DNA of 26,488 nt from a virus. Below the pieces are notes generated by a model. The model saw only the letters and a list, made by a program, of their open reading frames with translations. It was not told the DNA's origin and ran no database searches. Of the stretch, positions 5,601 through 26,488 are shown in pieces (position 1 is the stretch's first letter; each line of letters begins with the position of its first letter). A program made the translations under genes and the position numbers. The stretch spans positions 1 to 26,488 of IMG/VR virus record IMGVR_UViG_3300021960_000435. One strand, written 5' to 3'.

Positions 5601-6327
5601 GGTATGTATTGTTTGCACTTGGTATTAAGTTTCCTGAAAATGCTTCGTGGTTTACAGATAATGAAACAGTACCTGTAGTACCGCCTCCACTTAAACCAGA
5701 ACCTGCTGTAACACCTTCAATATCACCTGCGTCATTTGTAAAACTAATTACACCAGTACTACTGTCGTAACTTAAATCTCCGCCTGCACTAATTTTTCCT
5801 CTTATAACTGAATCAGCAATACCTAATGTACCTGATGTTGCAGTTAAGTTTGTTCCTGCCATTCCAGACGCCAAGTCTGCAATGCTTTCTTTCTTTGAAC
5901 TGTTGTCTGTGGCATCAATAATTGCAATGCTGTCTGCACTTACATCTACTGTTGCCGCTGTTAGTTCGTTTAAGTCGAGTGCTAATGTAACATCTCCACT
6001 TGAGGCTCCGCCACTTAAACCGTCTCCTGCTGTAACACTCTCAATATCACCTGCTGATGTAGTATTAGTAATTGTCAATGTGCCATTGTCATCATCATAT
6101 GCTAAACTAATACCTGCACCTGCTGTAAGTAAATTACCTACTGCATCTTCGATGTTTTCTTGGGTATTGATTTCTGAGTATTTTGCTAGTCTATGACCAC
6201 CTGCTGTACTACCATCGTGTACGCGGATGGTATTATTAGTAGTATCGATCGTGATCTCACCTGCTAGACCTGTAAAGGAACTGTGTTCTGCGGCTGTACC
6301 TCTTCTTCTTTGAATCGCGTATGCCAT
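2668..6327 (-). CDS. Giant collagen-like tail fibre protein with Mtd-type N-terminus
   Basis: This is a 1219-aa fibre. Residues 1-50 ([30 protein letters not shown]) resemble the N-terminal domain of the major tropism determinant family, a trimer-forming attachment module. Residues 50-910 are beta-rich repeats: the element [14 protein letters not shown] recurs about five times, with variants such as [12 protein letters not shown], alternating with GGTG-type turns and the [11 protein letters not shown] element. About 917-1045 is a collagen-like GXY tract (GPQGAQG, GQKGD) with no stops. The last 170 residues ([35 protein letters not shown]) form a globular end like the C-terminal domains of other marine phage fibres, perhaps an intramolecular chaperone of peptidase G2 type. 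It has its own promoter (6473-6480) and terminator (2621-2650). It probably binds host surface; whether it is a long, short or head fibre cannot be told here. Confidence 0.85.
3195..3580 (-). repeat. Collagen-type GXY coding repeat, fibre 2
   Basis: About 40 Gly-X-Y triplets give a 9-nt periodicity built from few variants ([28 protein letters not shown]). Q-K-G and P-T-G units repeat at DNA level. Identical blocks occur in the other fibre gene, so this is a likely site of unequal exchange. Confidence 0.85.
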
Positions 6328-6502: not shown

Positions 6503-9500
6503 TTAGACTAAGATTTCAATTACACCAGGAGCGGCTTCTGTTTTAGTTTCCAATGCTCTACCAATAATTTGTAATGGACTTAGCGATTTAGGATCTGCGG
6601 CAACCATACCGTGTCCTTCTAAGTCACTTGCAATAATTATATCACCTTTCTTAACAACACCGCCTACTTTACATGGCACTCTGCCGCGTAATGCTATAGA
6701 CACTACATGCTCACTATCCAGTTCTGCATTCATTAAGTATGCTGGATTTGTACTTACTACACCAACTACTGCATGACTTCCTGCTTCATTTACTGCTGTT
6801 ACTTCTGCTTTACCGCCTATTACAACAACTGTACCTGGTTCATAACTAGCATCTGCTTTATAGTTTTCTGCCAAGTCAGCATATTGAGCCGAGGTTGCTG
6901 TACCACTAAATGTGTTTGCGTACATTGTACCAAATTTAACACTACTTGAACCAATATTATATGTACCACTTGGTCCTGTTGCTACAATGTTTCTTGTGGT
7001 TATGTCACCACTGAATGTACCACCTGGGAATGGATTACCCGATGGTCCTGTTGGTCCAGTTGCACCAGTTGGGCCTGTACCACCAGTTGCACCTTTTTGT
7101 CCTTTATCGCCTTGTAAACCTTGTGGACCAGTTGGACCAGTTCCACCTTGAGCACCTAATTCTCCTTTTTGTCCTTTATCGCCTTGGCCACCTTGGGCAC
7201 CTTGAGCACCTTGTAAACCTTGAGGTCCTACTTCACCTTTCTGTCCTTTTGCACCTGTTGGACCAGTAGCACCCTGAGGTCCTGTTGCACCAGTTGGGCC
7301 TGTGGCTCCAGTTGCACCTTGAGGTCCTGTTGCTCCTTGTGTTCCTTGTGTTCCTTGTGGTCCAAGATCACCTTTTTGTCCTTTATCTCCAGTAGCACCG
7401 GTTGGTCCTTGAGCACCTACTTCACCTTTCTGTCCTTTTGCACCTTGTGGGCCTGTGGCTCCAGTTGGTCCAGTAGCACCTTGAGGTCCTGTTGCTCCTT
7501 GAGGTCCTTGAGCACCTGTATCACCTTTTTGTCCTTTATCACCTGTTGGTCCAGTTGGGCCGCTGTCTGCAGGTACCCAGTCATAGTCTGAACCATTCCA
7601 ACTCAATACTTCAGATGAGTTTGCTGAACCAGTGTTAAGATGTGTATCTACTCTGGCATTGGTATAATATAAATTTGTACCTTCACTTAAATCTGATGTG
7701 CTTCTAGTACTTAATGCACCTGCTTGTAATTTACCACTTGCATCAAATAATACTGTTGAACCAGGGCCTACAATACTGTTATTAAATGTTGCACTTGCAC
7801 TAAATGTTTTAGCACCGCCAACTGTTTGTGACCCACTAGTTCTAACAACTGTGCTGTCTACTGCAATATCGTCTGCATTTACTGTAATACCGTCACCGCT
7901 ACCAACGTTTAATGTAACAGCACCACTTGTACCACCACCTGTTAAACCGTTTCCAGCACCTACGCTCTCAATGTCGCCTGCATCGTTTGTGAAACTGATT
8001 TCACCTGTTGAACTATTATAACTTAAATCGCCACTTACACTGATAGCCGCTCTGGCTCTTGCATCTGTGTAATATAAATTTGTTGAACCTTCTGATACGT
8101 CATCAGTGTCGCCGCTCCAACTAATAACACCTGTGCCGTTATTATACGATATTGGCGCACTAGCACTGATTAATGCTCTAGTTGTTGCATCACTTGGTGC
8201 GTCAATTGTTAGTTGAGATCCAGTGATAGAAGTTGTTATGTTAGTACCGCCTGCTATTGTAAAGGTATCTGTGTTTGTGGTTGCTGTATAAGATGTAGAA
8301 TCTGCATTTATTGTTTTGATAATATTCTGACTGCTACCTAGATCTGAATTTGTAACAGTGATAACGTTTGCTGATTGTGATACAGTAACACCAGTACCTC
8401 CTGCAATTTTTCTAAAATTATGATATGTTGTTGCACCTGCTGTTCTAGAACCACCGTATACTGATTCTCCACTTGCCGCTACTGATTCAATTGAGCCTGA
8501 TATGCCTCTGTTTGTTAATGGATATTCTGTGCCATTTATAATACCGTATATTTCGCTATCTCTAGCAAAAATTACACTATCAGGTGTGTCGCCATCACCA
8601 AATACATTTGTACTTGTTTGCGAATCATCGTCTGCACCTGTGGCATATTGAGTTGCATTAGTAATGTCTTTTAATAATAAATGATTAACACCTATACCAC
8701 CGTTTTCAGTGGTTGTTAATAGTGTTGCATTTGTAGATGCATTAGCATCATTTAATTGATCTCTAACTACAAATCCTGAATTAGATAATGTGTTGCCTTT
8801 TGCAATATCAATAAAAACAATCTCTTCTGCTTCAACTCTTAATATTCCTGAGCCGGCTCTAATAGAAGTTTTAAAATTTGTTCCTGTATCAAAGAATATA
8901 TCACCGCCTGTGTCAAACTCAATATCATTTTCTTTGTATATACTGCTACCGATTGTTAATGTACCGCCGCTGTTTATAACAGGACTTACACTGGAATCAA
9001 ATGTTAATTGTGATTCTACTGTTTGTGCGACACCTGTTCTTCTAAGTACGGTTGAATCTACTTGAATACTATCTGCATTAACTGTGATACCACCACCGCC
9101 TGCTCCAACAATATCAAATGTTCTATCTGAATTTAAATCACCGCCACCTGTTAGACCGTTACCTGCTGTTAAATTTCTTGTTAGTGGTGCCTTTGTGGCA
9201 ATTGAATTTGTTAATGTTGTATTAAGTGCGGCATCGTTACCTAATGCTGTTGCAATTTCATTTAATGTATCTAGTGTTGCTGGTGCACCACCTTGTAAGT
9301 TTGCAATAGCCGTTTCTACATAGGCTGTTGTGGCTACTTTTGTACTATTATCACTTGCACTTTGAGTAGTTGCAGTTGTACTTGCGGTACCTGTTAAATC
9401 CACAGTACCTGTAAATGTTTTTGCGCCACCTATAGTTTGAATGCCGACAGTTCTAACAACTGTGGTGTCAACAGCAATATCACCTGCGGTGTAGTCAATA

Positions 9501-10699
9501 CCATCACCGCCAGTTAATTCTGCATCTATTCTTGTACCAACTGCACTATTAAAATCTGTAATTTGTGAACTTGGTATTGCTATGCTTACATCTGCCGCCG
9601 TTGTTAATTGTCCTTGTGCGTTCACAGTATAAGTCGGTATTGCTGTAGCACTACCATAACTTCCTGCACTAACGGCTGTGTTAGTGATGCTTACTGTACC
9701 AGAACTTGTAATAGGATTCGGTGACGTTGTTATGCCTGTGCCACCTGTTACACTTACTAGTGTACCTGGTGCAAAATTAGTAACGTATGCTGTTGTGGCT
9801 ACTTTTGTACTATTATCTGCACTTGCTAACGTTGGTGCTGTTAATTCGGTACTAAAATCTGTTGCTTGAGTAATTTGTGAAGGTAAACTAAATGTACCAT
9901 TACTGCTATTATAATCTATTTCACCTGATGTACCGGCAAATAATGCTCTTACTTCTGTGTCAAAATCTGTAACTTGCGTATGCGGTATTGCTATTGCTGT
10001 TGTTGATGCACTTGTTATTCTACCTTGCTGATCAACTGTGAATGTGCCTACACCTGTTGCACTTCCGTATGTATTAGGAGTAACTGCTGTGTTGTCTAAA
10101 TTAAAAACAAGTGTGTTAGCAACATCGTTATAAACTGCTGTTATGCCTGTACCACCGGAAGCCATTGCGCCAACTCTGTCGTCGACTGCTTCTGAAAAAT
10201 CTGTTATCTGAGAGGCCGGTATTGCTATGTTTACATCAGCGGCCGCTGTTAATTGTCCTTGTGCATTTACAGTGAATGTTGGTATTGCTGTAGCACTACC
10301 ATAACTTGCGGCTGTTACCGCTGTATTTGTAATGTTGTATACGCCAGCACTATATGTTAAGCCTGTACTTGCTGAAAAATGTGCTTGTACTTCTGCGGCA
10401 CTTGGACCGGTGTATGTTAATGTATTACCAGAGTATGCAACACTTCCGTCGCCACCAGCATCTACAACATTTAATACTCCTGTGATAGGTGCTGACGTTG
10501 TTAATGCAGTACCGTCCCAAGTTATTGTTGCATTTGCAGTTGTTTGACTTAATTGTAAGGTTGCTGTTGCACCAGTTCTATCATAGTTGACAATTATGCT
10601 GTCATCTGCAACTCTGAGTTGATCTGCTCTTTCACTGATTGATTGGGCATTAAATATTATATTACCCGGTGATCTAAATATACCTTTTTTGTCTGCCAT
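6503..10699 (-). CDS. Giant collagen-like tail fibre protein
   Basis: This 1398-aa fibre is related to the next gene downstream. Its N-terminus ([20 protein letters not shown]) differs from the Mtd-like start of the other fibre, so it may attach elsewhere on the virion. Residues 60-1040 are beta repeats. Three or more copies of a [20 protein letters not shown] unit followed by IAIPxSQITDF occur in the first third, then [12 protein letters not shown] units, then [12 protein letters not shown]-type units. A collagen-like GXY tract spans about 1047-1217. The last 180 residues share a nearly identical block with the other fibre ([15 protein letters not shown] through SAQYADLAE) and then diverge moderately. 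The late promoter is at 10731-10738, 32 nt upstream. Likely function is host recognition or virion decoration. Confidence 0.85.
7050..7560 (-). repeat. Collagen-type GXY coding repeat, fibre 1
   Basis: About 55 Gly-X-Y triplets, longer than the tract in the other fibre. It uses the same units ([24 protein letters not shown]). In collagen-like phage proteins such tracts form trimeric stalks. The 9-nt DNA periodicity makes length variation between relatives likely. Confidence 0.85.
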
Positions 10700-15739: not shown

Positions 15740-17437
15740 TTATATTCCTGGGTTTCCGCTTTCGTCTCCAAGTTCTCCTAATGTGTCTAGTCCACTAGTG
15801 CCATCGCCAGCATCAACTGGTCCCATGTCTATTGGTGCAGTAGTAACATCACTACCTGATTGCGGTCTTACACCTACTTGACGTAAGTCTGCTGATGTTG
15901 TATCATCTACAGCATCAACATCAAATGCGTTTTCTTCTGCCCACAGTAATTCGTTTCTTCTGATTTCGTCTTCGCTTAATCCTAAGTACTTAGCAAGTTT
16001 GAACTGTGTAGACAAGTAAGGTATGCCTTCTAGTGTACCAAACAGTTGTGTTCTTGCTTGATCTAATTCTAGTTCTCTATAAGAACTGAAGTTCTGTGGT
16101 TCGCCAAATGTTATATCAAATAAACTGTTGTCTACTTCAACACCACTTGCTTTTAAATAAATTTTGAATTCATCATTGAGACTTTTGATTATCTGTCTTT
16201 GCAGTCTTTCACAGTATTTGGCAAATCTATATTCCTGTATGTATGCAACACCCACCTTACCATCATTGTAAGGTGCTGACCCATCGTCTGGTCCTGTTGG
16301 CAAGTAACTGCTAGGTATACGCAAACCTCTAATCAGTTTGTTGTTGAAAAACTTGAGGTCATCAATTTCTCCTAAGTTACTACCACCTGGTAGTGTGTCA
16401 ACTTTACTGCCTCTACCATCTGCCGTTTGTGCAAAGAAGTAGTCTTCTAACATACTCATTGGATTGTAACTGCTGTCTGCTATATTTTGACCACTTTGTG
16501 ACTTGTTAGGTATACGTTTTTGTTGTACTTCATACTTAACACGTTCTAAGTATTGTTGTGCTTTATGAGGAGGCATGTTGCCCACGTCAATAAAGAACAC
16601 ACGTCTTTCAGGTGCTCTGTGTACACGATAGATAATAATTGCATCTTCTAATAATTCTTTTTGTTTGTAAACTTTGAAAATAGGATCTAGTATGCTGTTA
16701 CCAAAAGGCCAAGTTGTTTCCATGCCTTCGCTCATGCTGATGTGTAATACATGCTGAGCATCAACTGGCATAGCATTATTGGCATCCGGGCCATAACCTG
16801 AACTACTGCTTTTGAAACCTGCACTTGATTGTGGGTTGGTGTAGTCACTCATGATTGCACCTGAACCATATGGTCTATCCTGATTAGGTGACACACTGGT
16901 TGCCGCTAAATCTTTTAAATGTAGATCTAGATTTTTAATAAAGTATTGTTCAATCTTTTTACCATTGCTTTCGTTAACTAGCACTTTTTCAACTTGATAA
17001 GGATCTACCCAATATAATTTTTTAGTTTCTGGATCTCTAATAAAAAGTTGGTCTCCGTATTTAAGTGTGCTACGGAATATTTTAAAAATACGTCTTGGCA
17101 GTTCGTTGAGTTTGCACCATTTTTGTAATCCTTGTTGTATAACTTTGATTTCTGGATTACTTGGAGTATCATTATACTCAATTTTAAATGGTAATTTTGT
17201 ATCTTCTTCTTGCGTACAAAATTCTGCTATAATATCTAATGCGGCGTTGATTTCTAAATCTCTATCCATTGCATCATACTGATAATATCGCATGACCCTA
17301 TCAGGTGATCCGCTGTAAACTTCTGGTAGCCAACTGCTGTATCTACTGGCATACATATCTGCCTTTCCGTCAGTTCCTCTAACACCTGACGGTAAACCGC
17401 TGTTTTCTACCGGATTAAAAAATTTTTTCCAACTCAT
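15740..17437 (-). CDS. 20: Portal vertex protein gp20-like
   Basis: gp20 forms the dodecameric portal through which DNA is packaged and to which the tail joins. The 565-aa protein (T4: 524) carries characteristic stretches: SSWLPEVYSGSPDRVMRYYQYDAMDRDLEINAALDIIAEF at residues 33-72 (read as two segments), KYGDQLFIRDP, VLHISMSEGMETTWPFGNSILDP, and IIIYRVHRAPERRVFFIDVGNMP near the middle. These are followed by LPGGSNLGEIDDLKFFNNKLIRGLRIP. The C-terminus (about 510-565) is Asp/Gly/Thr-rich and probably disordered. It is first in the head operon, with a late box 29 nt upstream. Confidence 0.96.
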   Translation of the reverse strand: MSWKKFFNPVENSGLPSGVRGTDGKADMYASRYSSWLPEVYSGSPDRVMRYYQYDAMDRDLEINAALDIIAEFCTQEEDTKLPFKIEYNDTPSNPEIKVIQQGLQKWCKLNELPRRIFKIFRSTLKYGDQLFIRDPETKKLYWVDPYQVEKVLVNESNGKKIEQYFIKNLDLHLKDLAATSVSPNQDRPYGSGAIMSDYTNPQSSAGFKSSSSGYGPDANNAMPVDAQHVLHISMSEGMETTWPFGNSILDPIFKVYKQKELLEDAIIIYRVHRAPERRVFFIDVGNMPPHKAQQYLERVKYEVQQKRIPNKSQSGQNIADSSYNPMSMLEDYFFAQTADGRGSKVDTLPGGSNLGEIDDLKFFNNKLIRGLRIPSSYLPTGPDDGSAPYNDGKVGVAYIQEYRFAKYCERLQRQIIKSLNDEFKIYLKASGVEVDNSLFDITFGEPQNFSSYRELELDQARTQLFGTLEGIPYLSTQFKLAKYLGLSEDEIRRNELLWAEENAFDVDAVDDTTSADLRQVGVRPQSGSDVTTAPIDMGPVDAGDGTSGLDTLGELGDESGNPGI

Positions 17438-17465
17438 ATAATATCTCTAATGTGTTATAATACTA

Positions 17466-17473
17466 TATTTATC
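17466..17473 (-). promoter_or_regulatory. Late promoter box GATAAATA for the head operon
   Basis: The minus strand reads GATAAATAT 29 nt before the portal ATG, in the 82-nt gap after the tape-measure-like gene. No terminator hairpin is visible in that gap, so some readthrough from the tape-measure gene is possible. Confidence 0.75.
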
Positions 17474-17519
17474 TCTTGATGTCAATCGAGTTAATTGTTA
17501 TGGCTGGGGTATATGAAGG

Positions 17520-20500
17520 TTAGCCGCCGGAAGAGGCGTCTGCTCCGTCTTGTTTAACATACTTGGAAAGTTCGTTAGTTAAATCACTAACTTTCTCTAC
17601 TAGTTCTTTTGTTTGATTGATGTATTCTTTGTCTGCCGCATTGAGATTTGGATATCTCCTTTCCATTGTTTCCAGCATTGTGGATAATGAAGTTGTTTCA
17701 CCCAGTGTTAGACCATCGACTATTTTATCAACGAGTGCTTTATTTAATACTTCCATATCAGCAAGTGCATTACTGTCTTTACTAAAATACTTAGATCTAT
17801 TTTTACCAACACTATTGAAAACATACGCACCATCAATTCCGTCTTCTCCTCCAACAACTTTGGATAATGGACTACTACCAATTGTTTCTTGAATTAATGC
17901 ATTTAATTCATTTCCCATTATAAATTGTCCAGGATTGAATCCTTGCATTGCACTGATATTTTGTGATGATCTTGCAAATTGCTCTATTCGATATCGGTCT
18001 GCGGCACTATTACTTCTTTCACCGATAGACGCACCATCGATAACTATATCATCCATAATCACGTCCAGACTGAGGCCTTTCCCAAGTTTTTCAAGATATT
18101 TAGCACCATTTATCTTAATGTTGTTAGCATCTGCGTTTTCTAAAAATGCGGCATAACTATTATAGGCTTGCTCGTTTATAGATACAGCCTGTTCATATCT
18201 TTGTTGCATCATTTCTTGCATTCTTTCTGCTCTTGCTTTATCTTTTTCAGATAAATCACTTTTCATTACTGTTCTGCCTTTTTTATTATCGAAATCAAAC
18301 AATCTAAAGAGGTCGTCTTCAAAATCTGTATCTATATCGTACAAAGAACCGGTAATAGCATCTATTAAACCTGGGTAGTCTTTTCCAAAGGTTGCTAATA
18401 TTTCATCTGAACCCGAGGTAATGTCCTTGAACATCGTCGATGTATCTCTGCCGGCTCTTCTAGATAAGTTTTGACCAATTCCTGTTGTCTCGTAAGCACC
18501 TCTTACTTTGCTTGTGATCATTTGATTTGTTAATACATTTGCTTCACTACCGAAGAAGCCTTCGGTATAACGACCTGCCTGTTGATTGTACTGACCAGCA
18601 CTTATTTTTCCACTGATAAGTTGGCGAGCATAAATTTCACCAACCTTGTCACTGAAAAGCATTCCCTTGGTTGCCTTGTTTATGGAAATTGCCATGTCGT
18701 CCATTAAATCGCCAAAAAATCTACCTATAGTTTTAGCCAATGTGTTATTTGCTAATTCTTTGTTAAGGTCATTGCCTATTGATATGGCAAAATCTGATAT
18801 GTTGTCTACAAATGCAGTTCTGGCTTCTTCAAGTTTTTTTTCAAATACTTCTTTGCTATCGCCTTGTTGACCTCCAAACATTACATTCATGTATTCTGTG
18901 AAGTTTTCAAAAGCCTTGTATATCCCGGTTTCTCTACCAAACACATTGCCGACCAATTCTGTTATTCCGTTAGATAATGATACTACACTATCATTAAAGT
19001 CATATGTATTGTCAGACATTTTATCAAAACCAAGTGCTGTCATTAACACAGTTTTTCCAAAATCACCTATGGTTGCTGTGCCCTGATTAACAATAAATCC
19101 TAATTTATTAAATGTACTCAGCATACTAAATCTTGAGGTGTCTAATGCTTCGTCAAATTTTGCAAGTTGTTCGCCACTTAACTTTGCAATGTTTTTGGCC
19201 AAGTTTTGTATACCCGCCGCACCATCTACGCCGGCTGTGAATAATGATGATGAATATGCAAGTTCATCTGCGGATAGGTTTCTGAGTAGTAGTGCAAGTT
19301 CTCTGCCTGCACGTTTTGGCAGTTGACCTGTTGTCTGAAAATCATTTGCCAATCGTTCTACGCTTTCATATAAACCAGGGAATGCTGTTATAAGATTCAT
19401 TGTTTCAGCGGAAAGACCCGCAGAACCTTTGGATATTGCTTCAAATAATGGATTTGTCAAATCTTCTAATCCAGCCGCTTTTAATTCTGCTGATATTATT
19501 CTAGTTGAATCAGCAATGGCTTCACCATTAGCACCTAACTTAATACCTGTTGCTCTCATCTGATCTACATAATCTTCTTGAACCTCAGCACCATCTCTAA
19601 GTTCTTGTTCAGACATACCGGCGGCTTGAGCAAATCGCCTAATCATTCTGACACTTTCTGTGAAACTGCTTTGTAGGTTGTTACCCTGATTCTGAATCAC
19701 CATACCAAACCTACGTCTATATTCTAATTCAGCCATCATAGAACCTAACGCATCTTCCGCCGTAAATCCTAATTCTAATAATCCACCACTTGCAATTAAA
19801 CTTTTAGAATACAAGTCTCCAAAACCTTTAGCAGTTAGTGTTCTCATTATCTTACTGTTACTTCGAGCAAATTCTCCAAATTCCTCAAGGCTCATTCCTG
19901 CTAAATTGGCCGCCCTGGCTACATTTTCCACAGGATGTGTTAAACCAACTATTCCGCCTGTGCCTGCGGATAACGCCTGATTATAAAATTTAAACACATC
20001 TAAAAACTCATTTTTAATGTAATTAGCGGCAGTAAGTATTGCGGAACCCAATACGCCGGCAGTGGCCTTAAGTGCATCAAAGGCAAAGCCTAACGCAAAT
20101 CCAGCCTTAGAACCCATGCCTGCCATACTCATTAATCCGGTTGAACTGTTGTTCAAATTGTTTAAGATTTTATCTAGATTTTTATCGTTTTCAGTCATGT
20201 TTTTATTCAACTTGTTAAGTTGACTGATACCGTCTGACTGTAGATCCTGTAAATGTTTTAATCCTTTATCTATTGTTTGAGTAGACCCTTTGTCTCTTCT
20301 GGTTTGTTTTTTGTCAATGTCTTTGAAAGTTTTCTGCAGAGTTTCAATTTCTTTTTTTACTGCTTTTTGATTCTTGTCATCTAGTTTACCGCCTCTTGCT
20401 AATATTTCAAGGATTGTTCTGGTTTTGGTTGTTTCTTTGGCCATGCCTTTCAGCACATTCTCAACACTGACTTGACCAGCCGCAGTGGCCCATGCAGGTA

Positions 20501-20552
20501 TGTTGTTTATAGTACTCTGACCTTCTGGACCGTTAATTATAATGTCTGCCAT
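17520..20552 (-). CDS. Tape-measure-like tail protein, copy A
   Basis: This 1010-aa protein has a helical charged N-terminal third (coiled-coil-like about 35-135). A hydrophobic Gly/Ala segment follows (about 140-180: MAGMGSKAGFALGFAFDALK, ATAGVLGSAILTAANYI), then a long helical body. That build is typical of phage tape-measure proteins, which set tail length and pass into the host. Residues 262-321 align with 250-310 of the second protein at the right edge: GFTAEDA...RR/IRRFAQAAGMSEQELRDGA against GVTLDDA...ESIKQLRMFSTALGISTDELRQGA. T4 gp29 is about 590 aa. It lies divergent to a gp26-like chaperone gene, 115 nt apart, as the second copy does. AGGA precedes the ATG. Another large structural role cannot be excluded. 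Confidence 0.7.
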   Translation of the reverse strand: MADIIINGPEGQSTINNIPAWATAAGQVSVENVLKGMAKETTKTRTILEILARGGKLDDKNQKAVKKEIETLQKTFKDIDKKQTRRDKGSTQTIDKGLKHLQDLQSDGISQLNKLNKNMTENDKNLDKILNNLNNSSTGLMSMAGMGSKAGFALGFAFDALKATAGVLGSAILTAANYIKNEFLDVFKFYNQALSAGTGGIVGLTHPVENVARAANLAGMSLEEFGEFARSNSKIMRTLTAKGFGDLYSKSLIASGGLLELGFTAEDALGSMMAELEYRRRFGMVIQNQGNNLQSSFTESVRMIRRFAQAAGMSEQELRDGAEVQEDYVDQMRATGIKLGANGEAIADSTRIISAELKAAGLEDLTNPLFEAISKGSAGLSAETMNLITAFPGLYESVERLANDFQTTGQLPKRAGRELALLLRNLSADELAYSSSLFTAGVDGAAGIQNLAKNIAKLSGEQLAKFDEALDTSRFSMLSTFNKLGFIVNQGTATIGDFGKTVLMTALGFDKMSDNTYDFNDSVVSLSNGITELVGNVFGRETGIYKAFENFTEYMNVMFGGQQGDSKEVFEKKLEEARTAFVDNISDFAISIGNDLNKELANNTLAKTIGRFFGDLMDDMAISINKATKGMLFSDKVGEIYARQLISGKISAGQYNQQAGRYTEGFFGSEANVLTNQMITSKVRGAYETTGIGQNLSRRAGRDTSTMFKDITSGSDEILATFGKDYPGLIDAITGSLYDIDTDFEDDLFRLFDFDNKKGRTVMKSDLSEKDKARAERMQEMMQQRYEQAVSINEQAYNSYAAFLENADANNIKINGAKYLEKLGKGLSLDVIMDDIVIDGASIGERSNSAADRYRIEQFARSSQNISAMQGFNPGQFIMGNELNALIQETIGSSPLSKVVGGEDGIDGAYVFNSVGKNRSKYFSKDSNALADMEVLNKALVDKIVDGLTLGETTSLSTMLETMERRYPNLNAADKEYINQTKELVEKVSDLTNELSKYVKQDGADASSGG

Positions 20553-20584
20553 TTCAATTCCTGTAATATACGCATTTTATGATC

Positions 20585-20592
20585 GATAAATA
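20585..20592 (+). promoter_or_regulatory. Late promoter box for chaperone gene A
   Basis: GATAAATAA on the plus strand, 75 nt before the ATG at 20668. It lies upstream of, and faces across, the minus-strand box at 20627-20634, so the two transcripts overlap at their 5' ends. Confidence 0.72.
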
Positions 20593-20626
20593 ACACTAAC
20601 AAATTTAGTGATGCTTCGATAGTTAA

Positions 20627-20634
20627 TATTTATC
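20627..20634 (-). promoter_or_regulatory. Late promoter box for tape-measure-like gene A
   Basis: The minus strand reads GATAAATAT, 74 nt before the ATG at 20552. With the plus-strand box 34 nt away it forms a face-to-face pair, matched at 24730-24767. Confidence 0.72.
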
Positions 20635-20667
20635 GTTTTTATTAAAACATCACATATTGGAGATATT

Positions 20668-21510
20668 ATGACACAAAACACAAGTCCATTAGCAGATTTC
20701 TATAGAAATCCCAAGTTATATGTTTCATTGCCCAGCGGTACTGATTATTATAGTGCAGATGTAGTTGATATGCCTGAAGTAGGCGAACTGCCTGTGTATC
20801 CTATGACAGCAAAAGATGATTTGCTAACAAAAAACCCAGATGCATTATTAAATGGCGATGCAGTAATTAAGTTAGTAAAAAGTTGTGTGCCCAATGTAAA
20901 AAAACCTGCAGAACTATTAGCACCGGACATGGAAACAATTCTTATTGCTATACGTCAAGCAAGTAGCAAAGAAAAATACATGGAAATTGTGAGAACCTGT
21001 CCAGAATGCCAAGCAGAAAACAATTACAGTTTAGATTTAAGTTTGGTAATTCAAAGTGCAGAAGAAGTTATTGCACGACAGGACGTTAATCTATCAAACG
21101 GGTTAATAGCAAATATTTCACCAACAAACTATATTCACACAGTTCAAAGTGCTAAAACCATTATAGAACAAAACAGAAACTTTAGAAACGTTGATGTCAA
21201 TGACAGCGACGAGCAATTAAGGTCACTGGGACAAGCAATGGAACGTTTAAGTGAAATGAACTATCGTGTAATATTGGAATCTATCAATCATATATCAATA
21301 CCAGACGGCGAAACAGTTTCCGACCCTGTAATGATTTCAGAATTCTTAGAAAATGTTGATAAAGAAATTGGTATGGAATTAAATGATGCAGTAAGCAAAA
21401 TAAACAATGGCGGTGTTGTAAAAGAAGCACCAATGTTGTGTAATGAATGCAATCACGAATATACCACATCCATAAACTATGATCCAGTCGGTTTTTTCTT
21501 GAATTCCTAG
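20668..21510 (+). CDS. 26: gp26-family tail/baseplate protein, copy A (short form of frameshift pair)
   Basis: The zero-frame product has 280 aa. It matches the T4 baseplate family that includes gp26: PKLYVSLPSG near residue 16, ELPVYPMTAKDDLLTKNPDALLNG at 40-63 (read as two segments) and KSCVPNV at 71-77. Cys pairs C111/C114 (CPEC) and C258/C261 (CNEC) could bind one metal ion. It ends VGFFLNS-stop, and the FF codons are part of a slippery heptamer (21492-21498), so a fraction of ribosomes should make a 370-aa fusion. In lambda-type tails, such short and long forms are chaperones of the tape-measure protein. The tape-measure-like gene is divergent next door. GGAG stands before the ATG. It is about 2.3 kb from its homologue on the other strand. 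Confidence 0.88.
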   Translation: MTQNTSPLADFYRNPKLYVSLPSGTDYYSADVVDMPEVGELPVYPMTAKDDLLTKNPDALLNGDAVIKLVKSCVPNVKKPAELLAPDMETILIAIRQASSKEKYMEIVRTCPECQAENNYSLDLSLVIQSAEEVIARQDVNLSNGLIANISPTNYIHTVQSAKTIIEQNRNFRNVDVNDSDEQLRSLGQAMERLSEMNYRVILESINHISIPDGETVSDPVMISEFLENVDKEIGMELNDAVSKINNGGVVKEAPMLCNECNHEYTTSINYDPVGFFLNS

Positions 21511-21549
21511 GCAGAGCAGAACCTGAGCAAATTAGGGACTACCTAGGAA
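21492..21549 (+). promoter_or_regulatory. Programmed -1 frameshift site, copy A
   Basis: The heptamer T TTT TTC (21492-21498) is in the correct phase: zero-frame codons are GGT TTT TTC. After a 5-nt spacer, TTCCTAGG (21504-21511) pairs perfectly with CCTAGGAA (21542-21549) over a 30-nt loop. The zero-frame stop TAG (21508-21510) lies in the 5' arm. In the -1 frame the ORF stays open to 21779. The second gp26-like gene has the same arrangement. Confidence 0.87.
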
Positions 21550-21779
21550 CGTTAGAAGAGGACAGAAACAGCATAACCAAATCGATTGCTGACTTTGTTA
21601 TCTATACTGAAGGTTCTATCCCTTGGGAAACAGCATGGAATATTGCTCTTACTGATCAAACTGTATTATTAGAATCATTTACTACTCTAATGGATGCCAA
21701 GTCTGGCAAGAAATCCAAAGATGTTATGACACAGGAAATGATACCTGATAGTGCACCTGAATTGCCATCAGAGGAATAA
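21498..21779 (+). CDS. -1 frame extension of chaperone A (gp51-like position)
   Basis: These 93 codons are read after slipping at 21492-21498, starting LEFLGRAEPEQIRDYL and ending with TAA. The frame opens after a TGA at 21480 and has no ATG, GTG or TTG before a Met codon near its end, so independent initiation is unlikely. The sequence matches the extension of the second copy: FL-x-RAEPE, YL, ED, VIY-x-x-GS, W, L, then a Lys-rich AKSGKK end against AKAGKP. It is mostly helical. In lambda, the T part of GT binds the tape-measure and tail-tube proteins; the same role is inferred. The last 12 nt overlap the 3' end of the opposing 298-aa gene. In T4, gene 51 follows 26, but homology of this segment to gp51 is not shown. 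Confidence 0.82.
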   Translation, partial: LEFLGRAEPEQIRDYLGTLEEDRNSITKSIADFVIYTEGSIPWETAWNIALTDQTVLLESFTTLMDAKSGKKSKDVMTQEMIPDSAPELPSEE

Positions 21780-22664
21780 GTCGGTACTGTTGTTGCCTTT
21801 TAATTGCTCCACGTGGTTAACACCGTCATGGTGTTCGTCAATCAAATGCTCTAAGTCAAGTTGTTCTAACTGATCTACTATAGATTCAATTTCATCTGAA
21901 AGATAACAAAACTCTGAAACACAATTAATCACATTGCCTGGTACTACACTTGCTTGTAATTTATATTTGGTGCGATCAAACATTGGTATTTGTTCATTGT
22001 GTTTTAAATGCAGTAATGCATGATTGATGTTTCTGTGCATTACAAGACGCATAGCATCGAGTTCTTGTGCCGCTATACCAATGAACCCATGATGTGTGTT
22101 GTGTTGCATAGCGACGTTTATAATGCGTTGTAGGCCCCCTAAGTGACTGCACACTAACACTCTGTTATACAATTGAAACCAACTTAATCTTAATATGTAA
22201 TTATCATGCTGTGGGTCTAGGAGGTCGCGGAAAGATACAGAGTGCTCCGGCTTAAAATTTTCATAGTTTCTGTCCAACATATAACTGCCGGCATCTTCTC
22301 TTATCACCCAGTCAGCATACTCAGGTGCTTCGCTGTTTGTTTTAACTATGATTTCATCCGGGGAATCCTTGTATACCAGGTCTGCTGTTTGCTCCGAAAA
22401 TTGTTGTATAAGAAAAGGCATACTACCTATCTTTGCAAACTCATGTGCAACTGTTACATCATGCTCTGCTATAGCCAATACACATTCTAAAAAGTCTTGT
22501 GGGTGTCCTGATAAACCGTTGTATTTTTTATCCAGTAAAAGTTTGAACAATCCTAAGTTTCTAAAAGTCATGAGATTGTCAATAAAACTATTATTGTTTA
22601 AGTTATCACATGCTTCAAGAAATTCATGCTTTATGTGTAACCAATTATCTTCTACTGGTATCAT
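21768..22664 (-). CDS. Acyl-CoA-dehydrogenase-like protein, reduced
   Basis: This 298-aa product resembles the acyl-CoA dehydrogenase/flavin monooxygenase fold in layout. An N-terminal helical part FRNLGLFKLLLDKKYNGLSG, then FLECVLAIAEHDVTVAHEFA, recalls the family's LGL-x-x-L-x-x-x-YGGLG and eela-x-D-x-SVA. A short beta region (DEIIVKTNSEAPEYADWVI) and a C-terminal helical bundle (RVLVCSHLGGLQRIINVAM, then AAQELDAMRLVMHRNINHAL) follow. Members usually have 370-400 residues, so the beta domain looks shortened. I do not see the usual catalytic Glu context or FAD motifs. An enzyme, or a fold reused for another purpose, is equally possible. The gene is convergent with chaperone A. A CATAAATA box at 22677-22670 is too close to the ATG to serve it unless translation starts later. 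Confidence 0.42.
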   Translation of the reverse strand: MIPVEDNWLHIKHEFLEACDNLNNNSFIDNLMTFRNLGLFKLLLDKKYNGLSGHPQDFLECVLAIAEHDVTVAHEFAKIGSMPFLIQQFSEQTADLVYKDSPDEIIVKTNSEAPEYADWVIREDAGSYMLDRNYENFKPEHSVSFRDLLDPQHDNYILRLSWFQLYNRVLVCSHLGGLQRIINVAMQHNTHHGFIGIAAQELDAMRLVMHRNINHALLHLKHNEQIPMFDRTKYKLQASVVPGNVINCVSEFCYLSDEIESIVDQLEQLDLEHLIDEHHDGVNHVEQLKGNNSTDLFL

Positions 22665-22713
22665 GTTAATATTTATGTGTTAATGTTTATAGACACTTCG
22701 TGTCTTTGCCAAC

Positions 22714-22763
22714 TGCAAACTTCATTCACTTCGTTCATTTCAGTTTTTGTTTGCAATTTTTTT
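22714..22763 (+). terminator. Plus-strand terminator-like hairpin
   Basis: TGCAAAC (22714-22720) pairs with GTTTGCA (22749-22755), followed by a run of seven T. The loop is long (28 nt) with imperfect inner pairing around TTCG. It may end the plus-strand transcript from chaperone A, in which case that transcript would be antisense to the whole 298-aa gene. It may also end a small RNA beginning near 22665. Confidence 0.45.
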
Positions 22764-22922
22764 AATAAAGAAGTTATCATGTATGTTGAGTCATAATTCA
22801 CCTACTACAGGTGAATCAATGAGGTGTCATCATGTGATGCATCGTCATCTCTAACCCAGGTGCTATAAAGAGGTGGTGAGCCTTATCCCCTCATACACTA
22901 CTGTCACGAATCTCACGGAAAC

Positions 22923-22963
22923 CAATATAACCTGGTAGAGTTCAGTTATATTGACTGCAGGTT
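22923..22963. other. Two mutually exclusive hairpins
   Basis: CAATATAAC (22923-22931) can pair with GTTATATTG (22945-22953), 9 bp. The overlapping AACCTG (22929-22934) can instead pair with CAGGTT (22958-22963), 6 bp. Both pairings cannot form together, a layout found in switches and attenuators. The strand is not known. Confidence 0.4.
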
Positions 22964-23177
22964 GCTTTTCTCAGAGCCTGATCATTTAATACTGTTTGTC
23001 GTTTGTCTGTATTTCATTTAACGCCATACATTCCAGAATCTCGCACCGGGTGTTTCCATTGCCGGATTGTCAAAGAAATCGATATTAATAGCCTCGATGG
23101 GGTGGTGTATGGACCTATGTGTGCCTGTATTATGCCCTGGTATGATTGTGTTCTAACTTTCGTTTTAACACTCCTAC

Positions 23178-23600
23178 TTATAAGGTCTTTAAGGCCTCTT
23201 TGAGGATTTTTGAACCACCTACTCTGACGTTGATAATTCCGTTATAATAGTCGTCAGTTTCAAGTACTCGCCTCTCGAATTGCTCTCGGGCTTCTATGTA
23301 ACTTGCTACTCCTCGGCTAGGGCAATAGTACAATATTTCTCTACGAAATTTGTCTTCTCCTAGCTCTAATACATCTGCATTAAGATGATCACTACTACCC
23401 CAATAAGTACGCCAGTCACTTTCTTTGTAACCACGTCTTTTATTCTTTCTGCCTTTTAATGGGGGTTTGGTTGTTTTGAACTTGGCAAGTTTTTTGCCAA
23501 CATATTTCATATTGTTAGTTAGGTTTGTGATCAGATATACAAATGCTTCACAATCTTCCGGAAGTGTTGTAACTTCTGTGTCTTTATAATACCAACTCAT
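23178..23600 (-). CDS. GIY-YIG-type endonuclease-like protein
   Basis: At 140 aa it has EAFVYLITNLTNNMKYVGKKL at residues 18-38 (read with its flanks), which fits the GIY...YIG strand-turn-strand (FVYLI ... KYVGKK). A basic loop (KGRKNKRRGYKESDWRTYWG), EDKFRREILYYCP with a possible catalytic Arg, and SYIEAREQFERRVLETDDYYNG carrying the likely metal-binding Glu follow. Similar short proteins are common in T4-like phages and are often called homing or Seg-like endonucleases. Its ATG shares one base with the stop of the chaperone B extension, so it is the last gene of that operon. It may act as a mobile nuclease or in DNA processing. It sits between two duplicated tail modules, a setting where homing could favour rearrangement. 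Confidence 0.68.
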   Translation of the reverse strand: MSWYYKDTEVTTLPEDCEAFVYLITNLTNNMKYVGKKLAKFKTTKPPLKGRKNKRRGYKESDWRTYWGSSDHLNADVLELGEDKFRREILYYCPSRGVASYIEAREQFERRVLETDDYYNGIINVRVGGSKILKEALKTL

Positions 23601-23833
23601 TATAAGTCTTCAGTGGCAGGCTTTCCTGCTTTTGCTTTAAACAAGTCATTAATAATTTTGGCAGTTAATTGTCTTTGCGGTAAACTCATACTCCAGACGT
23701 CGCTCAATGTCAAACTGCCTTGTGCATAGATAACCATTTCAGTTACTTCTTTATTAATGGCTTCGGTGTCTTCATTGAGCTTCCTAAGGTAAGCCACTAC
23801 CTCCTCAGGCTCTGCACGAGCTAGGAAGCCGTG
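23600..23833 (-). CDS. -1 frame extension of chaperone B
   Basis: These 77 codons are read after slipping at 23839-23833: HGFLARAEPEEVVAYLRKLN and onward to AKAGKPATEDL-stop. They align throughout with the extension of copy A (FL-x-RAEPE, YL-x-x-L, ED, VIY-x-x-GS). A GTG at 23797 preceded by AGGAGG could in principle start a 65-aa protein, but the spacing to the GTG is only 2 nt. That start would also remove the part most conserved with copy A, which has no start codon there. Frameshift expression is the better reading. Confidence 0.82.
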   Translation of the reverse strand, partial: HGFLARAEPEEVVAYLRKLNEDTEAINKEVTEMVIYAQGSLTLSDVWSMSLPQRQLTAKIINDLFKAKAGKPATEDL

Positions 23834-23839
23834 AAAAAA
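23779..23839 (-). promoter_or_regulatory. Programmed -1 frameshift site, copy B
   Basis: On the minus strand TTTTTTC (23839-23833) is in phase, with zero-frame codons AAT TTT TTC. GCTTCCTA (23829-23822), 3 nt downstream, pairs perfectly with TAGGAAGC (23786-23779) over a 35-nt loop. The zero-frame TAG (23823-23821) begins in the 5' arm. Stem position matches copy A although the paired bases are partly different, so both arms changed together. Confidence 0.87.
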
Positions 23840-24705
23840 TTTACAGTATTAAAGTTTACAGCACTTTCAAATGTAAACTCTTCTCCTTCTGGTAACTTTT
23901 CACTACAAGGTTCGCATGTTAATTGCATACGTTTTTGGATACCTTTATCGCCCATATCAGTAATAAACCTCTCTAGTTCTTTACCTATAGAGGAATCACA
24001 GTTTTCTAAAAACTCCTGAATATGTTCTTTATCTTTAACTACAACTGGTTCGCTTTCTCCTTCAGAAGGAGGCATAGTAATAGTGTTTACACAATCTACT
24101 AAAATATCAAAGTTTAAATTTGCAAGTTCTATAAAATTGGTATTAAATGCTTTAATTTTTTCTAATTCATCCTCTATATTTGCAATTGATTGTAAACTTC
24201 TTTCGCTTCTAAAGTTGGCAACACCTGCCTTTACAGCAGTTTCATAACTAAAAGGAACCATAGAAATTAATAAACCTGAGTCTGTAGTGAACTCGTAAGT
24301 ATCATCAAGTGTATCCATGTTAGATAAAACTGCTTCTGTGCTAATAATAGCAGATGCATTTTCTGTACATTGTGGACATGGTGCTCCTACATCTAATTCA
24401 TCACCAAATGTAGCACCTTGTATAGCAACTAATAATGCATCAACATCATTAGCAACTAGCCTTCTGGGTGCTAAAATATTAGGTATGCAACTGGCTATGA
24501 CTTGAGCTACTGCTTCACCATTAAGCAAAGCATCAGGATTTTTCATCATGATCTCATCTTTAGCCGTCATGGGGAAAACTGGTAGTTCACCTGTGCTGGG
24601 TAAATCTATTATAGTTTCGTCATAAAATTTACCTTGACTTGGTAAACTAGTATATAATTTTGGCGTCCTAAAGTGACCTACTAGCGGGTTTTGTGTATTG
24701 GACAT
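23821..24705 (-). CDS. 26: gp26-family tail/baseplate protein, copy B (short form of frameshift pair)
   Basis: The zero-frame product has 294 aa and is a clear paralogue of copy A: PKLYTSLPSQGKFYDETIID, ELPVFPMTAKDEIMMKNPDA, LLNGEAV, ASCIPN, and Cys pairs C110/C113 (CPQC) and C264/C267 (CEPC). The middle has diverged, and the copy is closer to the usual gp26 pattern (LPSxGKFY). It ends VNFFTAS-stop at a slippery site, giving a predicted 368-aa fusion, almost the same length as the 370-aa fusion of copy A. It is divergent to the second tape-measure-like gene, 94 nt away. The GIY-YIG gene follows in the operon. A role as tail-assembly chaperone or baseplate hub part is inferred from family and context. 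Confidence 0.88.
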   Translation of the reverse strand: MSNTQNPLVGHFRTPKLYTSLPSQGKFYDETIIDLPSTGELPVFPMTAKDEIMMKNPDALLNGEAVAQVIASCIPNILAPRRLVANDVDALLVAIQGATFGDELDVGAPCPQCTENASAIISTEAVLSNMDTLDDTYEFTTDSGLLISMVPFSYETAVKAGVANFRSERSLQSIANIEDELEKIKAFNTNFIELANLNFDILVDCVNTITMPPSEGESEPVVVKDKEHIQEFLENCDSSIGKELERFITDMGDKGIQKRMQLTCEPCSEKLPEGEEFTFESAVNFNTVNFFTAS

Positions 24706-24799: not shown

Positions 24800-26488
24800 T
24801 TGGCTGACAAAGATAAAAGAATAGAATTCGAACTTCCAGAAGAAGGTTCCAATAGAGGATCAGTTTTCATACCTCCATTAGCAATGGACAGCACTCTGCA
24901 GGCTTTGTTAAAAAATAATGAAAAATTAAAAACAAATCTAGACAAATATCTAATGGCAGTAGCCAGAAAGATGCAAGACAGCGATAAGCAGAGCAAAGCA
25001 TTAGACGATTTAATTAAAACTTTAGAAAAAAAATCAGAATCAACAAAAAAAGAAACAGAAGAAGCAAAAGACACAGTTGACAATTTCTCCCAGTCTGTTG
25101 CTGGCGCCTCAGAAGGTTTAGAAAAACTAGATAAAAACTTCTCCGAATCTTCTGACGAGCTAAGGGAAAAGTCCAATAAGTTAAGCCGAACAATGGTAAC
25201 TCTGAGTAAAGACTTTACTTGGACTCTAAATGCTTTTGATTTTGTTGTTAAAAGTTTGATGTCTTTTGGCACGATAACAGGTGGTTATCTAGTAGCCAGT
25301 GTAAGAAATACAGGTGAAGCTCTTAATAGTTTAACTGATGTAGGTCAGGCCTTTGGTGATGTAACTGGTACTGGTACAAGATCTACCCTAGAAAATATTT
25401 CTGCTATGGGCAGACTGGGTTTAACAGTTGACCAGACCGCTCAGGTTTTTCAAACATTTTCCAGAACAGCCGCAATTTTAGGACAAAGCCAAATTCCAAA
25501 CCTCACTAAGCAATTTTTAGAGCTCACAAATTATGGTGCTGATTTTGGTGTAACACTGGACGATGCCACACAGATATTTCTGGAAGATCAGGAATTCCGA
25601 AGCAGAATTTTAAACAGAGATCAGATGATGGATCAACATCATGCTCGTAGGTCTGTGGAGTCTATAAAGCAGTTAAGGATGTTTTCTACAGCATTGGGTA
25701 TCAGTACAGATGAGTTAAGACAAGGTGCAATGAGTATGCTGGACTCCAACCAGAGTATTCAGTCATTAATAATGAATATGGGTAAGAGAGGACCTGAAGT
25801 AGAAGCCGCCTTGAGCTCATTAGTTGCTGGTTTAAAAGGATCTGGAATAGATGATGAAATTATATCCGGCATTTTAGACGTTGCCTCAGTGGGAGCAACT
25901 GGTGCCAGTGACTTCCTTAACAAATTAATTCCATCTAATCCTGAAGCCTATAAAGCCTTAACGCAAATTGGTTTGGACATCAGGGAGGGAGAACTAAACC
26001 TTGCAGATATGCCCAACCTCATCAGAAGTATTACAAACACTTTTTCAACAATTGATAAAAATGGTAAATTACAGGCTTTGTTGGCAAGTGATGTTGGTGG
26101 TGATTTACAAGGTCCCACTCGGGCTTTGATAAGAAGTTCTCGTAATGCCGAGGAGGCCGCAGACAATTTAGCCAAACTGATCGATCAGACCGGCGTGTCT
26201 ACACAAATGTATGATGAAGTACAAACAGCATTAAATCAGGCCAAAAATTTGTTTTCAAAACTTGTTGCCACTACTAGTGTTTTCCAAGTAAGTCTGGTAA
26301 GCAATATAGGTCAGGGTTTTACAAAATTTATCAAAGATGAGAAAAAAAGAAACAAGGTTATAGAAAACTTTAGTTTGGTCGTGGGTAATATAGGCAAGGC
26401 AATTGGTAAGGTAATAGGCGATTTTATACAAAAAATAGGTGGCGGCGGACCTAACAGTTTGCAAAATGGAATTAACATATTAATAGAT
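24800..26488 (+). CDS. Tape-measure-like tail protein, copy B, partial
   Basis: The frame is open from 24800 to the right edge (563 codons) with no stop; the C-terminus is missing. I use the TTG at 24800 because an in-frame TAA lies at 24785 and GGAG stands seven bases before the TTG; the first in-frame ATG is 28 codons later. The N-terminal part is charged and helical (about 35-130: KTLEKKSESTKKETEEAKDT). A hydrophobic stretch follows (about 140-170), then a helical body. Residues 250-310 align with 262-321 of copy A at 17520-20552. The same order of coil, hydrophobic part and body supports common descent. It is divergent to chaperone B, as copy A is to chaperone A. It may be the second tape measure or a diverged tail-lumen protein. 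Confidence 0.75.
   Translation, partial: MADKDKRIEFELPEEGSNRGSVFIPPLAMDSTLQALLKNNEKLKTNLDKYLMAVARKMQDSDKQSKALDDLIKTLEKKSESTKKETEEAKDTVDNFSQSVAGASEGLEKLDKNFSESSDELREKSNKLSRTMVTLSKDFTWTLNAFDFVVKSLMSFGTITGGYLVASVRNTGEALNSLTDVGQAFGDVTGTGTRSTLENISAMGRLGLTVDQTAQVFQTFSRTAAILGQSQIPNLTKQFLELTNYGADFGVTLDDATQIFLEDQEFRSRILNRDQMMDQHHARRSVESIKQLRMFSTALGISTDELRQGAMSMLDSNQSIQSLIMNMGKRGPEVEAALSSLVAGLKGSGIDDEIISGILDVASVGATGASDFLNKLIPSNPEAYKALTQIGLDIREGELNLADMPNLIRSITNTFSTIDKNGKLQALLASDVGGDLQGPTRALIRSSRNAEEAADNLAKLIDQTGVSTQMYDEVQTALNQAKNLFSKLVATTSVFQVSLVSNIGQGFTKFIKDEKKRNKVIENFSLVVGNIGKAIGKVIGDFIQKIGGGGPNSLQNGINILID

Follow-up and report, generated by a model that had tools for sequence, protein, structure and literature searches.

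The gene B locus

The DNA analysed here (the window) is a 26,488-base IMG/VR virus record that carries a T4-type portal and a prohead protease. Gene B, on its minus strand, combines a frame-0 reading frame with a slippery site, a stem and a −1 extension. Its features, and that of the gene beside it, are as follows.

23821..24705, minus strand: gene B frame-0 ORF, 294 aa, predicted short tail assembly chaperone (TAC-N), gp26-like, PF12322
23833..23839, minus strand: gene B slippery heptamer T TTT TTC (U UUU UUC)
23821..23823, minus strand: gene B frame-0 stop UAG, 16 nt past the heptamer start
23822..23829, minus strand: gene B stem 5′ arm GCTTCCTA, beginning 3 nt past the heptamer
23779..23786, minus strand: gene B stem 3′ arm TAGGAAGC
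23600..23833, minus strand: gene B −1 extension (putative TAC-C), 77 codons plus stop
23795..23797, minus strand: gene B GTG, proposed start of a free 65-aa protein; not conserved
24803..26488, plus strand: tape measure-like gene divergent from B; phrog_167 (tail length tape measure), E 7e-6

Frame 0 ends, on the minus strand, with the codons GTA AAT TTT TTC ACG GCT TCC TAG. A second heptamer, A AAT TTT, overlaps T TTT TTC from upstream (AAATTTTTTC), and the UAG overlaps the 3′ end of the 5′ arm of the stem. The tape measure-like gene is cut by the contig end.

The window contains a homologue of gene B, gene A, which also has a tape measure-like neighbour.

20668..21510, plus strand: gene A frame-0 ORF, 280 aa, homologue of B, PF12322 at E 3e-14
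21492..21498, plus strand: gene A heptamer T TTT TTC
21504..21511, plus strand: gene A stem 5′ arm TTCCTAGG
21542..21549, plus strand: gene A stem 3′ arm CCTAGGAA
21498..21779, plus strand: gene A −1 extension, 93 codons plus stop; fusion 370 aa
17520..20552, minus strand: 1010-aa tape measure-like protein divergent from A; resembles the protein encoded from 24803 (E 1.6e-13)

The frame-0 parts of A and B are 30.5% identical (E 4e-59) and their extensions 37.7% identical over 69 residues (E 2e-15). Inspection of the sequence placed the heptamer, the UAG, the 8-bp stem and the −1 extension of gene B where the first-pass annotation had put them, and the fusion lengths it gave, 368 aa for B and 370 aa for A, agree with ours.

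What do the frame-0 ORFs encode? Both products match PF12322 (T4_baseplate), B at 49 bits (E 8e-13) and A at 53.6 bits against a curated cut-off of 24.5, and both genes match phrog_150 (baseplate hub). In profile searches the 1010-aa protein gave no convincing family match of its own. The model of the frame-0 protein has a mean pLDDT of 86. In a viral structure library T4-like baseplate proteins ranked at the top, with Aeromonas phage 25 gp26 at E 8e-4, and on this model the frame-0 protein appears to share its fold with the gp26 proteins. A Foldseek search of the PDB with the same model returned no chain at E ≤ 0.001, and all VIA-align matches had Z < 8. Three haemoglobins found as PDB sequence matches, at E 0.03 or worse, are not believable relatives and were rejected.

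Elsewhere in the window, 2668–6327 and 6503–10699 encode two large proteins with collagen-like GPTGPQG repeats and a common C-terminal stretch of about 310 aa (66% identity). They are probably tail fibres.

Conservation of the slippery site and its extension

If gene B is read by slippage, how widely are the elements of its site kept? We examined 84 sites: 82 from viral contigs together with genes A and B. Of 593 confirmed relatives, 80 were kept. Left out before the count of 84 were L011–L013 (site sequence the same as L010), L017 (gene A identical to that of the window) and L019 and L020 (the same as L018); L096–L100, L103, L157, L158, L160, L163 and L164 were left out as already counted under other loci. 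The 84 sites still contain near copies, and 63 are distinct over 91 nt.

TTTTTTC is present in 75 of the 84 sites. The other nine read AAT TTT TCC and have no TTTTTTC, but they keep the overlapping A AAT TTT, which allows the same −1 shift. (The loci with A AAT TTT and a −1 extension, and without T TTT TTC, are L125, L129, L134, L142, L143, L144, L150, L151 and L161.) At all 84 sites the stop lies at a constant distance from the site and the −1 frame stays open for 72–91 codons beyond that stop. Past the stop the extension is under purifying selection, with a dN/dS of 0.07–0.52 between B and ten relatives.

T TTT TTN occurs in 25 of 27 named non-T4 phages (22 TTTTTTC, two TTTTTTT and one TTTTTTG), and the distance from heptamer to stop ranges from 7 to 40 nt among the named non-T4 phages. 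Given the amino acids at the site, the codon choice in the 25 phages has a product probability of 10^-24.6, a figure that is overstated because the phages are related. Vibrio phage D532 (L092) and CBA120 (L095) have no canonical heptamer; their gp26-like genes have a −1 extension of 53–58 codons.

Might the extension be a free small protein, made from a start of its own (GTG 23797 in B) or by termination–reinitiation? Two bases ahead of that GTG gene B has GAGGAGG, and in some jumbo phages an ATG overlaps the stop (121Q, TAATG; Phosso, ATGA), with separate small ORFs annotated at such sites. On the other hand, 39 of the 63 distinct sites have no ATG, GTG or TTG within the first 30 codons of the −1 frame. 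The homology of the extensions starts near the heptamer, upstream of the GTG, and a free start leaves the conserved heptamer unexplained. The first-pass annotation had asked whether GTG 23797 is the sole start of a free 65-aa protein; a GTG stands at that codon in 19 of the 63 distinct sites, and we reject the 65-aa protein as a conserved product. Production of the extension as a free protein, from a separate start or by reinitiation, is very unlikely, but reinitiation may operate at the jumbo-phage sites where a start codon overlaps the stop.

The RNA stem

Is the stem stronger than the encoded protein demands? For the 63 distinct sites we took as the stem score the best pairing of the first 22 nt past the heptamer with the region 30–78 nt past it. 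In the null, the −1 codons after the stop were swapped for synonymous ones according to the codon usage of the family. The real pairing beats the null mean in 62 of the 63 sites and reaches z < −1.64 in 54, with a mean z of −2.8; after clustering at 85%, 29 of 34 pass. When all 78 nt are scored together by folding energy, 44 of the 63 sites pass. Seven frame-0 control windows and three of four control windows in the extension have mean z values between −0.55 and +0.33. The extension control window at +60 (60–144 nt past the heptamer) has a mean z of −1.16, with 23 of 63 sites passing. The pairing in this last window is perhaps a second RNA structure.

These values bear on a rival explanation, in which the heptamer is no more than a conserved pair of Phe codons and the stem arises incidentally because the protein sequence is conserved. 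Phe–Phe is indeed nearly conserved in frame 0. However, its codons take the form NNT TTT TTN in 25 of the 27 named phages, the frame-0 tail beyond the heptamer differs in length among the named phages, and the stems of 54 of the 63 sites exceed the synonymous-codon null while the controls mostly do not. We assign a negligible probability to this explanation.

In most sites the 3′ arm lies where B has it, in Lys–Leu codons. In a sister group of 17 sites it lies about 12–15 nt further downstream, in Glu–Ala codons. The check proposed by the first-pass annotation, covariation of the stem across homologues, gave a divided answer. In the sister group we counted 12 cells with two-sided changes, where shuffles gave 4.8, and the covariation score was reached by none of 500 shuffles. 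In the group to which B itself belongs (44 sites) covariation is not above that of the shuffles, and the 5′ arm is nearly invariant. In this group changes on the 3′ side of the outer pairs keep the pairing, and the inner pairs often become a bulged version.

Among the named phages a significantly strong fold past the heptamer is present in nine of 25 (Phosso, Atu_ph07, 121Q, XacN1, S-SSM4, P-RSM6, Astolliot, Moby and 6E35.1a) and absent from 16. With heptamers in 25 of 27 and strong folds in nine of 25, almost every phage has the heptamer, whereas the presence of the stem depends on the lineage. A search of the region against Rfam produced no believable family. The spacer between heptamer and stem is usually quoted as 5–9 nt; that of B, at 3 nt, is shorter.

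It had also been argued that, between A and B, both arms of the stem had changed together. The two stems do differ, but mostly by a shift of the 3′ arm by one nucleotide in register. Six core pairs, TTCCTA/TAGGAA, are common to both; the 3′ arm of A comes one base earlier than that of B and its stem is lengthened inward by GG/CC, and the stem of B is lengthened outward by GC/GC. Because the six core pairs are identical, the A/B pair by itself is weak evidence of compensation, and we reject it as the strong evidence for which it had been taken.

Could RNA polymerase, rather than the ribosome, slip on the six-U run? Most sites do contain the homopolymer run that transcriptional slippage would use. 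Yet runs of six are short for slippage by RNA polymerase, and the conserved downstream RNA stem and the fixed codon phase suit ribosomal slippage. We consider the transcriptional route extremely improbable.

The heptamer, the extension and the stem are conserved and selected. The proposal that slippage is selected at this site is well supported: all three elements are kept across a broad family, and the stem is kept beyond the needs of the protein. The first-pass annotation had allowed for homologues that lack both stem and heptamer. Instead, homologues have the heptamer and most close relatives have the stem.

Two chaperone genes, probably from two phages

It had been supposed that a single phage kept both A and B as paralogues. 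Our analysis of the contig speaks against this reading. The window appears to be a mosaic of two phages, each normally with one copy, and A and B are probably orthologues from these two phages joined in one contig.

23071..23122, no strand: approximate mosaic junction, with A-type sequence on its left and B-type on its right; inside the shared noncoding element

By base-by-base alignment the window is A-type up to about 23,070–23,089 and B-type from about 23,108–23,122, so that the identity switches within about 50 nt. L071 (G015; the same as L017) is 97.7% identical to the window over 17149 to 23565 as a whole; its GIY-YIG protein has 76% identity to that of the window and is followed by gp46 and gp47. 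The B-type contig G001 matches the window from 22682 on, at about 94% over B itself, and runs in the order gp47, gp46, noncoding element, GIY-YIG, B, tape measure, portal, protease, capsid. Relatives usually carry portal, tape measure and chaperone, then the noncoding element and GIY-YIG gene as a cassette in either orientation, and then gp46 and gp47. The head-to-head order of the window would follow exactly from a joining of A-type and B-type DNA inside this cassette, which is inverted between the two types. G003 has the same signature.

Two complete chaperone and tape-measure modules in one phage, with A and B true paralogues, would agree with the presence of both on one 26.5-kb contig. They would also agree with G003 (L053), the sole other contig with two copies, which has the same arrangement. 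Against this stand the L071 match up to the junction region with its GIY-YIG–gp46–gp47 continuation, the gene order of the B-type contigs and the abruptness of the switch. Moreover, 86 of the 87 other IMG/VR records, many of which are fragments, have one PF12322 gene, G003 being the one with two, and the exact 46-nt junction sequence was found in no other viral contig searched. On the mosaic analysis and these copy counts we rejected paralogy within one genome as the likelier reading; it is unlikely. The junction may be an assembly error or a true recombination.

A related and distinctly unlikely case is that the contig is genuine and its two complete head-to-head modules, each with its own frameshift stem, represent a duplicated state. 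If so, the arrangement of T4, with a short 26, a long 51 and no slippage, could have arisen from such a state by specialisation. With A and B probably orthologues, the argument from retained paralogues is replaced by one from conservation among orthologues. The window illustrates how metagenomic arguments from a ‘retained paralogue’ can rest on chimeric joins at shared elements.

The noncoding element shared by the two types (22690–23178) is conserved, about 450–480 nt long, and lies beside the GIY-YIG gene; we found 53 distinct copies and no Rfam family for it. On the minus strand RNAalifold folded 39 copies at −66.8 kcal/mol, against −3.0 ± 2.0 for shuffled columns, into 88 pairs of which 44 have changes on both sides. 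Since this energy is far below that of the shuffled columns, the element is a candidate for a new structured RNA. Together with the GIY-YIG gene it stands between the chaperone and gp46, in either orientation, in L051, L054, L058, L060, L062, L070, L101, L102 and others, as if the cassette inverts or was inserted more than once. The GIY-YIG protein (23178–23600) is 79–94% identical across the contigs compared, and the chaperones adjacent to it are 33–94% identical to B, a pattern consistent with a recent spread of the GIY-YIG gene.

Compared with L063, the window is 95–99% identical in portal, capsid and orf298 but 40% in the tape measure, 70% in gene A and 60% in the gene A extension. The tape measure and chaperone may have been exchanged as a pair or may be evolving together.

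Mechanism and comparison with known systems

To judge from these comparisons, gene B very probably uses −1 programmed frameshifting to make tail assembly chaperones of two lengths, short and long, for a marine T4-like phage. The majority of ribosomes would end at the UAG and yield the short form (TAC-N, 294 aa). The stem 3 nt past the heptamer would make a minority pause and slip by −1 on U UUU UUC; these would translate a further 77 codons and so produce the long form (TAC-NC, 368 aa). If the two forms act as lambda gpG/gpGT do, they would coat the tape measure protein, whose gene lies divergently beside B, and bring in the subunits of the tail tube. Gene A would be a site of this kind that belongs to another phage. 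We infer the slippage, its rate, the ratio of its products and the chaperone role.

How does gene B compare with T4 itself? The gp26/gp51 chaperones of T4-like phages belong, like B, to the PF12322/gp26 family, and there too the long form consists of the short form with a domain added at the C-terminus. An alignment of the C-terminus of T4 gp51 (residues 201–249) with the extensions is possible, but the identity is low (18% with B). In contrast to the one gene with a frameshift site in B, T4 has two genes, a gp26 without heptamer and a gp51 that is a continuous longer protein. This split arrangement (26, 51) is not what we found, since 86 of 87 other records have one PF12322 gene with the heptamer. 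Vladimirov, Gautam and Davidson reportedly found in 2022 that several T4-like groups conserve the frameshifting, with T4 itself using 26 and 51. A downstream RNA structure is common but not universal among frameshifting tail chaperones. The heptamer of lambda gpG/gpGT differs from that of B.

According to PMC5009743, −1 slippage giving short and long tail chaperones is established in lambda and many long-tailed phages, with T4 excepted. As described there, lambda gpG/gpGT resembles what we propose for B in its −1 slippage near the end of the chaperone gene and in forms that act on the tape measure (PMC5009743). The tape measure gene is downstream in the lambda type, whereas it is divergent beside B. 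With the G/GT type gene B shares a heptamer before the stop, an open −1 extension and a neighbouring tape measure gene. As a downstream RNA structure it has the conserved stem, a candidate stimulator.

PRFect credits to Vladimirov 2022 the separate short and long genes of some T4-like phages (PMC10885494), and PMC12846349 credits to the same source poly-T −1 slippery signals in T4-like TAC-N genes. The TAC genes of phage Adele and of the Vandenendeviridae/Andersonviridae have, like B, a conserved T-rich slippery motif (there GTTTTT) and an uninterrupted −1 frame, there of >200 bp (PMC12846349). A term search of the main text of the Adele paper found no mention of stem, hairpin, pseudoknot or secondary structure (PMC12846349).

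According to these sources, the mechanism is already reported for T4-like phages, and the gene B locus is a further case of it. To this we add the evidence on the stem and the correction of a chimeric contig. The comparative evidence indicates that selection on the heptamer and the RNA stem maintains frameshifting in T4-like chaperones, in lineages with the 3′ arm about 12–15 nt further down as well as in the group that keeps only A AAU UUU, and it makes the conserved stem a testable stimulator.
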